Below are positions 11,405 to 39,927 of a stretch of DNA of 64,000 nucleotides, piece after piece. Under the pieces are notes generated by a model. That model saw only the letters and a list, made by a program, of their open reading frames with translations, was not told where the DNA came from and ran no database searches. Numbering within the stretch: the stretch's first letter is position 1; every line of letters starts with the position of its first letter. The position numbers were made by a program, and so were the translations under genes. The DNA comes from Neobacillus nitrireducens (GTDB taxonomy: Bacteria; Bacillota; Bacilli; Bacillales; Cytobacillaceae). The stretch is from the NCBI RefSeq assembly GCF_030915405.1, contig NZ_CP133262.1, forward strand, positions 1,736,001 through 1,800,000, given 5' to 3'.

Positions 11405-11989
11405 ATGAAGAAAGCCTTAATTATCACAACGTTATGTCTGATGATAGCCGGTTGCAACACCAAAAATGATCTGACAAACAATGGGAACGATAAATTTGTT
11501 AAGGTAAAAAACAGCTATATTGAAAATGTTGACCGGAAATCCGGTCAAGAAATCTCCAAACGGTTAGTAAAACTTGCAACCAGTATCCCAAATGTTAAAG
11601 ATGCCACAGCTGTAGTGATAGGCAGATATGCGATTGTCGGTATTGATGTAAATTCGAAAATTGATCGTTCGCAAGTTGGATCGATTAAATATTCTGTCGC
11701 TGAAAGTTTAAAAAAGGACCCATACGGCGCCAAAGCAGTCGTCGTTGCTGATGCAGATACCACACAGCGCTTAAAAGAAATACAAGCAGACATCAAAAAG
11801 GGGAGGCCGGTACAGGGCATTATGGAAGAACTCGCCGATGTGGCAGGCCGACTAATGCCAGAAATACCTGGAGACTTAATTACACCAAGCCCTAAAAAAG
11901 CTCCCGAAAAACCTGATAAAAAACTCCCTGCAAAAGATGATAAAAAGTTAGAAAAGGAACAAGAAGACCAATCCAACCATTATAAATAG
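11405..11989 (+). CDS. ylaJ: YhcN/YlaJ-family sporulation lipoprotein
   Basis: 194 residues. A lipoprotein signal (MKKALIITTLCLMIAGC, lipobox IAGC, Cys17) precedes a YhcN/YlaJ domain with the hallmark segment on metal-independent folding ribbons (VKDATAVVIGRYAIVGIDV, residues about 65-83). The last 40 residues are Lys/Pro-rich and disordered. Family members sit in the spore inner membrane and affect germination; it marks the host as a spore-former. A clear AAGCTTTACGGAGGTGG region gives the ribosome site. A fold-back repeat starts immediately after the stop codon. Confidence 0.9.
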   Translation: MKKALIITTLCLMIAGCNTKNDLTNNGNDKFVKVKNSYIENVDRKSGQEISKRLVKLATSIPNVKDATAVVIGRYAIVGIDVNSKIDRSQVGSIKYSVAESLKKDPYGAKAVVVADADTTQRLKEIQADIKKGRPVQGIMEELADVAGRLMPEIPGDLITPSPKKAPEKPDKKLPAKDDKKLEKEQEDQSNHYK

Positions 11990-12136
11990 AAAAGCGGAAG
12001 CGCCCGTTTAGCGGCGTATGGACTGGAGCGCTTCGACTGAGATAAAGGAAACACGAAGAGCGATAGCGCATTCGTGCTTGACTTATCGTAGGGAGAAGAG
12101 CGAAGTCCACTAGACGCTGGGAGCTGGAGCTAGACA
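11990..12136 (-). repeat. Fold-back intergenic repeat, copy A
   Basis: The copy starts on the base after the ylaJ stop with AAAGCGGAAGCGCCCG and ends with CTGGAGCTAGACA; read on the minus strand it runs TGTCTAGCTCCAGC to CGCTTCCGCTTT, the ends shared with copies at 34693-34814 and 39160-39216. Terminal arms AGCGCCC (11999-12005) and GGGAGCT (12119-12125) pair at six of seven positions. Inside, GATAA/TTATC and CACGAA/TTCGTG can form an inner hairpin. It encodes no protein. Confidence 0.75.
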
Positions 12137-12179
12137 GCGAACAAATTTCAAAGAGAAATTCTGAGTATAAAATGTGAAA

Positions 12180-12206
12180 AGAAAGGCTTAGGAATTCCTA
12201 AGCTTT
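12180..12206 (-). terminator. Terminator overlapping the end of the PPOX-like gene
   Basis: Minus strand AAAGCTTAGG-AATT-CCTAAGCCTTT followed by CTTTT; the left arm includes the last codons of the gene. Confidence 0.75.
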
Positions 12207-21290: not shown

Positions 21291-21448
21291 GCCTAATTTG
21301 TATGTCACATTTAAAAAAATTAGATCATTTAAACGGGTTGTTGATTTCAGCTCCCTCTAATCAACTTGTCCAAAAAAATTAAATGATACCCATAATCGGA
21401 ATAGAGTAGAGGGAAAATAATTAATTTATTTATTTACGCCCCTCTCAC

Positions 21449-21483
21449 ACCACCGTACGTACGGTTCCGTATACGGCGGTTCA
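21449..21483 (-). ncRNA. Group II intron domain V
   Basis: Minus strand GAACCGCCGTATACGGAACC followed by GTACGTACGGTGGTG folds as the 34-nt catalytic helix with the terminal tetraloop-like GAAC and a CGT triad region near the base. Domain VI follows and should carry the branch-point A in the AATAAATAAATTAAT arm. Confidence 0.85.
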
Positions 21484-21485
21484 AT

Positions 21486-22760
21486 TTATATTACAGTGTG
21501 TACTTTTAGATAATGTTCTAAAGCAGAGGGAAGTCCCCTCTGCTTTAGTCTTTTATTTGAGATTGCTCTTTGTACGACTTTCGATAATCCGATATACCGG
21601 TAACCTCTTCGACAGAAAGTTAATCCTTTCGCCTCTTCCTCAGGAATCCCTAATTGAACAAGCGATTTGATTTGTTTCCGTGATACCTTCCATTGCTTCC
21701 AGATGATAACTCTAATTCTGGAGCGAAGCTTCATATCTATAGCAGTCATCGCTTTTTTCATGTTTGAGATTCTAAAGTAATTGACCCACCCAAGTATGAC
21801 CTGTTTTAGTTTTAAAATTCGGAAGTCTAGCTGTACACTCCAATTTCGCTTTGTTAGTTTTCGGAGCTTCCTTTGAAACTTCTGTATTGACATGAGATGG
21901 GGTTTTACTTGATACCTCTTGTTATTGGTATCGTAATAATACCCAAATCCTAAGAATTTTAAATCTTTTGGGCGAGAGATTTTGCTCTTTTCCACATTGA
22001 CTATTAATCCTAGTTTTTCTTCTATAAATCTCACGATTGATTTCATCACTCTGTTTGCTGCTATCTCACTCTTTACAAAAATGAGAGCGTCATCAGCGTA
22101 TCTCACAAACCGTAGTCCTCTTTTCTCTAGTTCCTTATCGAGTTCATTTAACATAATATTACTCAATAATGGGCTAAGGTTCCCTCCTTGCGGAGTCCCG
22201 ACTGGTGTTTCTTCATATTTCCCTTTCACCATGACTCCACTGACTAAGTATTTTCTGATTAACGAGATGACATCGCCATCATCTATTGTGTTGGCAATTA
22301 TTCGCATGAGTTTGTCGTGATGGACTGTATCGAAGAATCTTTCGAGGTCAATGTCTACCACCCAATCGTGTCCATCGTTTAGAAATTCCAAGCTTTTTAT
22401 AATAGCCATCTCACAACTTCTTTTTGGTCTAAAGCCGTAACTGAATTCGCTGAATTGCTTTTCAAATATCGGATTGAGAACTTGATGAATGGCTTGCTGA
22501 ACTACCCTATCCACTACTGTTGGTATTCCCAACTTGCGCATCTTACCGTTTTCTTTTGGGATTTCCACTCTTAAGGCAGCTTGTGGTCGGTATTTTCTTG
22601 TTCTGATGCGCTGACGTAGTTCATCCTTGTTCTCTTTCAGATATTGATTTAGTTCGTCGACTGTTACTCCATCGACCCCACTCGCACCTTTATTTTTGTA
22701 GACACGTAAGTAGGCTTCATTCATATTTTGATTGCTTAGAATCTGTTCTAAAAGTTCCAC
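21486..22760 (-). CDS. ltrA: Group II intron reverse transcriptase/maturase (class C)
   Basis: 424 residues. The reverse transcriptase domain covers about 20-290, with DIDLERFFDTVHHDKL, GTPQGGNLSPLLSNIMLNELD and the catalytic YADD in RFVRYADDALIFVKS. The maturase (X) domain follows (RIRVIIWKQWKVSRKQ). There is no HNH endonuclease domain, in keeping with class C introns that prime on nascent strands. The GTG start at 22760 has AAGGGAG eight bases upstream. The reading frame is intact, so the intron may still splice and move. Confidence 0.95.
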   Translation of the reverse strand: MELLEQILSNQNMNEAYLRVYKNKGASGVDGVTVDELNQYLKENKDELRQRIRTRKYRPQAALRVEIPKENGKMRKLGIPTVVDRVVQQAIHQVLNPIFEKQFSEFSYGFRPKRSCEMAIIKSLEFLNDGHDWVVDIDLERFFDTVHHDKLMRIIANTIDDGDVISLIRKYLVSGVMVKGKYEETPVGTPQGGNLSPLLSNIMLNELDKELEKRGLRFVRYADDALIFVKSEIAANRVMKSIVRFIEEKLGLIVNVEKSKISRPKDLKFLGFGYYYDTNNKRYQVKPHLMSIQKFQRKLRKLTKRNWSVQLDFRILKLKQVILGWVNYFRISNMKKAMTAIDMKLRSRIRVIIWKQWKVSRKQIKSLVQLGIPEEEAKGLTFCRRGYRYIGLSKVVQRAISNKRLKQRGLPSALEHYLKVHTVI

Positions 22761-23265
22761 ACTCGTTTCTCCCTTCCTCTCACGTAATAAGTGATAGCTC
22801 CATTTTGGTTATCCTTTGAGATACGCTCATACTTTCCCCATTAACACATTCGGAGTAGGTCACTTATGCATTCGTGGTGTTGAAACACTATAAATTGTTC
22901 AGCCCTTCATGAATTACTTCATTACTATGGCTTCTGCTGACTTCTTGCGGCAAACCTTTTTCGACTGTACCTATGTACATCCGCAAGACCTCCCAGGGTA
23001 AGACAACTATCTTTCCTCTTTTACTCGCCTGATTTACCCTACAAAGTTACGCACATCTTTTGGACTTTGACTTGCTTGGGAGCCTTATCCCTTTGTAGAG
23101 CCTTAGTATCAGATTTCTGTTCGTCGAGCCAAGATTTTATTCCACGCTTCCTCCAGCCCTTACCTCACGGTAAGTACCTTGCGCTTCCTTAGTGGTTGGT
23201 CGATGTGTACCCCCACAGTGGACTTTCACCACCTAGATAGTTGCCATGCCTGGCACACCAAAGAA

Positions 23266-34647: not shown

Positions 34648-34692
34648 AAAAAAGCGGAAGCGGCCTAAACAGCCCGCTTCCGCTTTTCTTAT
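34648..34692 (+). terminator. Terminator of rnjA
   Basis: Perfect 14-bp arms AAAAGCGGAAGCGG (34650-34663) and CCGCTTCCGCTTTT (34674-34687), tail CTTATT. The arm equals the repeat-family end GCGGAAGCG. Confidence 0.9.
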
Positions 34693-34814
34693 TGTCTAGC
34701 TACAGCGCCTAGGGGCTCGGGGTCATAAGCCAATCAGACCTGAAGGTTAAAGAGCAACCTTCATGCCTGCTCGTCTTATGCCTGACGCCCCTGAGCAAGG
34801 CGCTTCCGCTTTTC
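34693..34814 (+). repeat. Fold-back intergenic repeat, copy B
   Basis: From TGTCTAGCTACAGCGCC to GGCGCTTCCGCTTTTCTT, abutting the ktrC stop codon. Terminal arms AGCGCC (34704-34709) and GGCGCT (34799-34804) pair perfectly. Nested inside are GCTCGGGGTCA with TGACGCCCCTGAGC (bulged), CATAAG with CTTATG, and GAAGGTT with AACCTTC, so the whole copy folds into one long hairpin. Same ends as copies A and C. Confidence 0.8.
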
Positions 34815-39107: not shown

Positions 39108-39142
39108 TTAAAAAAGAAGCGTGGATAGGCTCCACGCTTTGT
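39108..39142 (-). terminator. Terminator/attenuator between dapH and ykuR
   Basis: Minus strand AAGCGTGGA-GCCTA-TCCACGCTT and then CTTTTTT, immediately followed by the AAAAGGAG of ykuR. Confidence 0.8.
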
Positions 39143-39159: not shown

Positions 39160-39216
39160 TATCTAGCTCCAGCGTCCCAACGTCTATTGGACTTCGCTAA
39201 ACGGACGCTTCCGCTC
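39160..39216 (+). repeat. Fold-back intergenic repeat, copy C (short)
   Basis: 57 bases from TATCTAGCTCCAGCGTCC to GGACGCTTCCGCTCT, abutting the dapH stop codon. The terminal arms AGCGTCC (39171-39177) and GGACGCT (39203-39209) pair perfectly and differ from copy B by a compensated pair. The inner part is much shorter than in copies A and B and keeps TTGGACTTCGCT in common with A. Confidence 0.8.
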
Positions 39217-39927
39217 TTAAAGTTGACGAAGCTCTTGCATTATTTCAGTTTTTGACTTCGTTTTTTCATCAATATCTTTAATTTTCCTTGCAGGCATCCC
39301 TGCCACCACTGTATAAGGGGCTACATCTTGAGTAACTACTGCACCGGCAGCAACAACTGATCCTGTTCCAACAGTGACTCCTTCAAGGACTACAGCATTT
39401 GCTCCGATAAGGACATCATCTTCAATGACCACTGGTTTTGCAGAAGGTGGTTCAATGACACCTGCTAAAACAGTTCCAGCCCCTATGTGACAATTCTTAC
39501 CGACAGTTGCTCTGCCACCAAGGACAACACCCATATCAATCATAGATTTTTCTCCAATAACAGCACCAATATTGATAACTGCACCCATCATAATAACAGC
39601 ATTGTCACCAATTTCTACTTGGTCACGAATAGTAACGCCTGGCTCAATTCTGGCATTAACGTATTTTGTATCTAATAATGGAATTGCTGAATTTCGACGG
39701 TCATTTTCAATGACTTTATCTTCAATTTTCTCTTTATGCGCTTCTAATACTTCATTAATTTCAGACCATTCACCAAATAGGACACCGGTATTTCCACTAA
39801 TAAAGGTTTTTGTATTGCTTCCAAAATCTATTCCTTCTAATTCACCTTTTAAATAAACCTTAACAGGTGTGGATTTTTTACTATTTTGGATAAAAGAAAT
39901 AATTTCATTTGCATCCATCATCTTCAT
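39217..39927 (-). CDS. dapH: Tetrahydrodipicolinate N-acetyltransferase
   Basis: 236 residues. An N-terminal helical domain precedes a left-handed parallel beta-helix of hexapeptide repeats ([49 protein letters not shown]). It acetylates tetrahydrodipicolinate with acetyl-CoA and commits it to diaminopimelate. [25 protein letters not shown] is nearly the B. subtilis YkuQ start. ATG 39927 has GGGGGT. It precedes ykuR, but a repeat and a terminator lie between them. Confidence 0.95.

Follow-up and report, generated by a model that had tools for sequence, protein, structure and literature searches.

Group IIC introns insert behind terminators, and the YPAL repeats of Yersinia are likewise said, in work attributed to De Gregorio in 2006, to lie close behind stop codons and to hit rho-independent terminators. 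YPAL, or RU-2, is about 168 bp long, has internal inverted repeats and lacks TA ends; empty and filled sites between relatives are also reported, as are targets that span or adjoin dyad symmetry, target duplications of 3-26 bp, and a link to transcripts of the upstream gene (PMC2229807). Palindromic GTAG REPs, which occur with RAYTs, lie mostly downstream of coding regions and can supply a TAG stop; they are 20-40 bp long with a GTAG tag, and the phyla listed for them do not include Firmicutes (PMC3733652). For Bacillaceae, the bcr repeats of the B. cereus group are described as intergenic and MITE-like, often in UTRs (PMC3446304, PMC2267715), and Bhal-1 of B. halodurans is listed as a 74-bp stem-loop family of 36 copies (PMC2267715). 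Here we analyse a repeat family that occurs three times in a 64,000-nucleotide stretch of Neobacillus nitrireducens DNA (the window; NZ_CP133262.1, positions 1,736,001 to 1,800,000), following its copies through the genome, a second strain and related genomes.

Results

Three elements in the window

A sequence-only reading of the window had described three intergenic elements at 11990-12136, 34693-34814 and 39160-39216 that share their ends, differ in interior, and point the same way with one end within three bases of a stop codon. All three are present as described (Table 1). Their interiors differ, element 1 being type A, element 2 type B and element 3 a short type A; the GCGGAAGCG end lies within three bases of the ylaJ, ktrC or dapH stop; and the orientation relative to the adjacent gene is identical. 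The gene names agree with Pfam (Spore_YhcN_YlaJ, TrkA_N/TrkA_C and DapH_N). Common ends are found in all three, with both 14-nt ends exact in element 1 only: the left end of element 2 has one mismatch, and element 3 has one in its left and two in its right end. At element 2 the ktrC stop starts one base beyond the TTTT that ends at 34813. Short bidirectional terminators with right-end sequence in both arms are seen at 34650-34687 in the window and at 1978777-1978808 and 2029703-2029740 in the same genome, and several relatives have similar short terminators at ktrC, made of GCGGAAGCG/CGCTTCCGC palindromes; these are possibly element remnants turned terminators.

Table 1. Features of the window elements, with the sites that differ between the two strains (window positions, except in the last two rows).
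Feature	Position	Strand	Basis or remark
Element 1, type A, full length (about 146 bp)	11990..12136	-	TGTC end at 12136, GCTTTT end at 11990; type A model match
ylaJ stop TAG, abutting the GCGGAAGCG end	11987..11989	+	Relatives have a similar C-terminus whether or not an element is present
Diverged long left extension of element 1	12137..12172, limits approximate	-	Extension consensus
Native bidirectional terminator hairpin of the ylaJ/PNPOx pair, beyond element 1	12186..12203	.	Hairpin start seen in element-free relatives
Element 2, type B (about 121 bp)	34693..34813	+	Near-constant terminal C is 34814; type B model match
ktrC stop TAA	34815..34817	-	Within TTAT at element 2 right end
Near-perfect bidirectional terminator, RNase J-like gene/ktrC	34650..34687	.	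Both arms contain right-end sequence, one mismatch
Element 3, short type A derivative, apparently internally deleted	39160..39218	+	Type A model match
dapH stop TAA	39217..39219	-	Overlaps element 3 right end
Native dapH terminator hairpin, left beyond element 3	39119..39137	.	GCGTGGA...TCCACGC-like hairpin kept in relatives
Element in second strain (G021) only, six sites	L363, L371, L373, L375, L389, L404		
Element in window genome only, five sites	1630665, 4521213, 4657779, 3178838, 2261281		

An abundant family with modular interiors

Elements typically measure about 120-150 bp, with an optional left-end extension of about 35 bp. The two interior types carry the same ends (type A, 145-150 bp; type B, 118-121 bp), and shorter and a few longer forms occur. 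In the window genome (G000, a single contig of 5,153,056 bp) the left (TGTC) end has 52 matches at one mismatch or fewer, against 0 for a reversed-pattern control, and the right (GCGGAAGCG, GCTTTT) end has 71 against 4; pairing left and right ends gave 55 copies. A type A covariance model (E<=0.001) found at least 74 copies in these 5.15 Mb, a lower bound because 150 of 1026 first-look candidates were scored. The type B model detected copies in each of the 40 genus genomes sampled; counts per genome ran from 3 up to the scoring ceiling of at least 90, the latter in G022. A strict gapped pattern matched at least 117 stretches in named genomes, whose record titles include Neobacillus, Cytobacillus, Lederbergia, Metabacillus, Evansella, Oceanobacillus and Psychrobacillus. 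In a sample of 398 genomes from across the class it was present in 5; the window's family contributed 3 of these (4 sampled), the rest of the order 2 (34 sampled) and genomes outside the order 0 (360 sampled). Rfam gave no match on the element, whether for the window at gathering score, for ten loci at E<=1 or for the stretch with the window's group II intron, and no element match came from a plasmid collection (two queries) or a phage collection (one query), searched without a positive control. The top-ranked literature matches listed, from a coverage that leaves out most subscription journals, contain no description of this repeat family.

Strain comparison at L361 and L391 indicates that short forms arise by internal deletion, and tandem copies are joined by TTTTC plus a few bases, often TTAT-like. 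At L103, L194 and L195, element-like ends pair at a spacing of 316-423 bp with no ORF of at least 90 aa, and these pairs may represent larger interior types. In a 3.2-Mb member of the genus (G034), element-like matches at C1:39417-39954, C5:19577-20102 and C51:122498-122780 are spaced by about 245 bp, which suggests a longer tandem array. Many copies are located before start codons, and two lie within a 23S-5S rRNA spacer (L085, about 1553-1698; L028, 1501-1645) and should therefore be co-transcribed with rRNA.

Conserved hairpin

The hairpin is conserved. Two-sided changes were seen in 18 of 34 consensus pairs of type A and 13 of 23 of type B (33 sequences each). Among disjoint sister pairs (53 for type A and 60 for type B, drawn from 110 and 135 sequences), type A showed 50 double changes where permuted partners gave a mean of 1.0 and a maximum of 6, and type B showed 40 (permuted mean 0.6, maximum 4). 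A 3x3 internal loop is flanked by the outermost pairs, AGC/GCT and AGCG/CGCT, which are nearly invariant. Such covariation can come from selection on RNA, from selection on single-stranded DNA, or from hairpin-templated repair. Type A mismatches read as G-U more often on the stop-codon strand (49 versus 21 on the reverse, a share of 0.70; the permuted control gave 0.51, sd 0.11, with 5.6% of permutations as extreme). In type B the asymmetry is not significant (share 0.57, 26% of permutations). For element 1, the RNA of the stop strand has a predicted fold of -55.8 kcal/mol (z -4.2) and that of the opposite strand -48.6 (z -4.7).

The short-form ends TGTCTAGC and GCTTTTC do not match as a terminal inverted repeat; the inner AGC...AGCG arms pair around the internal loop, and in long forms the left terminus AGATAAGAAAG is weakly similar to the right end and its flank read as reverse complement (ATAAGAAAAG). 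Sequence to the left of TGTC is not conserved among short forms. No signal for a target duplication emerged across 100 non-tandem copies (best z 2.2), and with anchoring on the long end it was weak (69 copies; z 3.1, the best of 63 tests). An apparent duplication of 5-6 bp (z about 4) was rejected, as it disappeared once tandem copies were dropped. Individual cases do resemble a 4-bp duplication, namely TTAA at L389, TTAT at 2261281 in the window genome and TTAT in a ktrC tandem. T-runs make the footprint ambiguous between none and a few base pairs within the T-run.

Placement at stop codons

The genome-wide search that the sequence-only reading had proposed returned many copies, with a tendency to cluster at stops in one orientation. 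With genes taken from a simple ORF caller, the GCGGAAGCG end lies between -6 and +8 nt from the stop in 27 of 43 stop-facing copies, compared with 0 of 44 for the left end, so that placement is indeed non-random. It is not strict, as had been supposed from the three window elements: genome-wide, 16 of the 43 stop-facing copies are not stop-adjacent. Right ends facing a start codon fall within the same interval in 1 of 30 cases (among the 74 model-defined copies). In the named genomes (152 elements in 117 stretches, tandem copies included, one stretch being the second strain itself) 42 of 72 stop-facing right ends and 1 of 90 stop-facing left ends are stop-adjacent. The stops beside an element are almost always TAA or TAG. 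TGA makes up 2 of 62 of them but 120 of 794 background stops (Fisher p=0.007, with relatedness ignored), a rarity that a TTA/CTA target predicts. Directly after TTTT, C predominates, followed by T, T/A, A/T and T, whether or not the long left end is present, and this preference suggests that the target includes TTA/CTA.

Orthologues of ylaJ, ktrC and dapH are each present in 40 of 40 genus genomes, and 30 loci per gene were examined (one ylaJ locus lacking a protein match). Occupied sites hold type A, type B or other interiors, single or in tandems of two or three copies, or short remnants. The protein ends are largely alike with or without an element, dapH ending in ELRQL at 29 of 30 loci, and at ylaJ and dapH the native terminator hairpin stands beyond the element. 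For ylaJ, TAG is the stop in the window genome, in G021 and at L221, all element-bearing, and also at L247, where no element was recognised; the remaining loci have TAA or TGA. The idea that the element alters the stop codon as a general rule was rejected on these loci. A single comparison between the strains, L371 against position 4053674 of the window genome, shows an insertion that supplies TAA one codon before the other strain's TGA, making a small protein one residue shorter (QFKR in G021, QFKRG in the window strain). Here the insertion replaced the native stop, and the stop is thus not always retained.

Terminators beside the element

Terminators were counted with a simple hairpin-plus-T-run detector against random flank positions drawn without intergenic matching. 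One lies within 100 nt to the left of the element at 24 of 55 copies in the window genome and 45 of 153 others, compared with 5 of 264 and 24 of 730 random positions and 1 and 1 in shuffles; to the right the counts are 3 of 55 and 5 of 153. Opposite-strand terminators are nearly as frequent (21 of 55 and 35 of 153), which suggests that most of them may be bidirectional. A looser detector, applied to intergenic DNA only with both sets pooled and tandem copies left out, found terminators at 33 of 55 copies between two forward genes, 28 of 41 between convergent genes, 10 of 39 between two reverse genes and 1 of 13 between divergent genes. Distances from hairpin to TGTC cluster mostly at about 0-26 nt or at 34-47 nt, as expected from copies without and with the left extension. 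The polymorphic sites 4657779 and 3178838 have no terminator hairpin, so a hairpin is not obligatory. The window also holds a group II intron (21401-23258, minus strand) with a 424-aa reverse transcriptase/maturase; it is missing from the second strain, and its 5' end lies directly behind a terminator hairpin and T-run, the type of slot used by the repeats.

Strain differences and a shared slot

The second strain, G021, carries the same species label as the window genome, and one of its stretches (L329) agrees exactly, over 39 blocks of 200 bases, with Bacillus sp. AFS006103 NTXX01000011.1 (L164, 8 kb), which makes the window genome closely related to that strain. The two strains differ by presence or absence of an element at 11 sites (Table 1), several of which align untidily, and at L400 by an internal deletion. 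From 53 left-end matches in G021, 50 copies were compared with the window genome: 19 are the same, 19 are different and 12 lack an orthologous flank. In the reverse comparison of 52 copies, 20 are the same, 13 different and 19 without orthologous flank. The stretches were partly picked to cover missing sites, and these counts do not represent rates.

At L389 alone do outgroups suggest insertion over loss. The slot holds type A in G021 and type B in another species (G031), and is empty in the window genome and a third species (G028); the empty state consists of a terminator hairpin, a T-run and the antisense stop of a convergent gene, whose end, AGCLTY followed by TAA, is the same in 5 of 5 genomes. 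In G019 the hairpin at this locus is altered and the element absent. Independent insertion of A and B into one slot would explain this most simply, although one element may instead have replaced the other. At L138 a type B element is nested within a type A element. The suggestion of a terminator-directed mobile MITE accordingly survives in its first two parts, since polymorphic sites, the shared slot, nesting and upstream terminators strongly support mobility and a link to terminators; the classic marks of a MITE are unclear. The other suggestion of that reading, a function at the 3' end, is possible.

Search for the moving enzyme

PF01797 (RAYT) has matches in 37 of 40 genus genomes, with one in the window genome and none in G021. 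A paired element within about 1.5 kb was found at 0 of 20 PF01797 loci, and none at the window genome's own locus (L328). PF08388 (GIIM, group II maturase) is present in 27 of 40 genomes; the 13 without it include G021 and G022. Ten end pairs 300-5000 bp apart were found in the loci examined, five with an ORF of at least 90 aa and five without. No transposase, partner IS or autonomous copy was recognised in the long end pairs, at unpaired ends or in the inspected loci.

Discussion

The repeats are probably a non-autonomous, directional hairpin element that inserts into T-tracts, mostly behind intrinsic terminators and before TTA or CTA. Insertion would take place in a T-rich tract, usually the T-run behind an intrinsic (often bidirectional) terminator, where TTA or CTA follows. 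Because TTA and CTA in compact gene ends are antisense TAA and TAG, the element would become wedged between stop and terminator. Its right end, a stem followed by TTTTC, would restore the junction of T-run and TTA, and with the junction rebuilt the protein end and native terminator usually survive. The resemblance of the right end to the target would explain head-to-tail arrays, and internal deletions would produce the short forms. We infer that recognition rests on the T-tract, that the strain differences are mostly insertions, and that a new right end may serve as landing site for the next copy. Transcripts of genes with stop-adjacent copies would carry a hairpin starting a few nucleotides past the stop, and this could plausibly affect translation or the stability of the mRNA. 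A bolder version holds that the element carries its own target, that insertions spare the terminator and stop and create a landing site, and that the enzyme, which is neither RAYT nor group II reverse transcriptase nor recognisable IS, reads the terminator slot; we regard it as speculative and rather unlikely.

Several other explanations account for part of the data. The element could be a host-kept 3'-UTR RNA that controls mRNA stability or translation, its placement set by selection and its mobility incidental. Strong covariation in both types, the type A excess of G-U on the stop-codon strand (49 versus 21) and the stable predicted fold of the element 1 stop-strand RNA speak for such a function, and ribosomes are reported to stall at REPs lying within 15 nt of a stop (PMC12306157). 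The opposite strand of element 1 folds well too, however, and the type B asymmetry is not significant; sites are polymorphic within a species, most of the 30 ylaJ and dapH loci lack a recognisable full element, many copies precede start codons and two sit in the 23S-5S spacer. A primary host function is doubtful. The opposite extreme, that the repeats are immobile terminators that grew or converged in sequence, could appeal to the short GCGGAAGCG/CGCTTCCGC palindromes at ktrC of several relatives, but presence and absence within a species, the nesting at L138 and the use of one slot by both types contradict it and leave it with practically no weight.

Among mobile alternatives, a classic MITE moved by a DDE transposase, with a target duplication of 4-5 bp masked by T-runs, would fit the few suggestive cases (TTAA at L389, TTAT at 2261281 and in the ktrC tandem), the MITE-like internal deletions, and AGATAAGAAAG and ATAAGAAAAG taken as a possible imperfect inverted repeat of long forms. 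Loss of the duplication signal without tandem copies, its weakness under long-end anchoring and the lack of a partner IS in the loci inspected make it improbable, if less so than the remaining two. Movement of a REP-like element by a RAYT (Y1 HUH) transposase would suit the directional placement, the hairpin, the target-like TTAT beside the right end and the presence of PF01797 in 37 of 40 genomes, including one in the window genome. This is very unlikely given that neither the 20 PF01797 loci nor L328 has a paired element, that G021 has no PF01797 yet has copies absent from the other strain, and that short forms lack conservation to the left of TGTC. The reverse transcriptase of a group II intron might instead copy the element as a SINE-like retroelement, intron and element both using the slot behind terminators. 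This would find a parallel in the window intron directly behind a terminator T-run, and directional insertion with T-run microhomology agrees with it; the absence of a GIIM match from 13 of 40 genomes, among them G021 with its strain-specific copies and G022 with at least 90 matches, renders it extremely unlikely.

The family is abundant across many Bacillus-like genera and probably recently active, and the short gap from stop codon to terminator would offer small mobile DNA a safe-harbour strategy. Ordinary genes gain a longer 3'-UTR through the element, which can also supply a stop and may seed new bidirectional terminators. Two near-identical strains provide a ready system for finding the enzyme and for testing the effect of the stop-adjacent hairpin on translation.

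Several known families can be compared with the element by description. The bcr repeats, bcr1 included, are likewise intergenic repeats of similar size in Bacillaceae, but bcr1 is specific to the B. cereus group according to the title of its paper; Bhal-1 is likewise a stem-loop repeat of a Bacillaceae genome. GTAG REPs share a palindromic structure, a location downstream of genes and the capacity to supply a stop (here TAA), whereas an association with RAYTs was not seen for the present element at 20 loci and L328. With group IIC introns the element has its genomic slot in common, and the group II intron of the window sits there; it differs in having no Rfam intron domain and in being too short for a reverse transcriptase. 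If the element carries its own target, its one-way head-to-tail arrays would be somewhat like integron cassettes. The nearest known kind, judged from descriptions, appears to be YPAL. That family belongs to Yersinia rather than Bacillaceae, and its duplications of 3-26 bp contrast with the lack of a consistent one here, while the present element stands apart in its modular make-up, with A, B and other interiors, and in its head-to-tail arrays. Both are alike in size, internal inverted repeats, the absence of TA ends, empty and filled sites and targets with dyad symmetry, and also in placement behind stops at terminators, which in the present element is a tendency.
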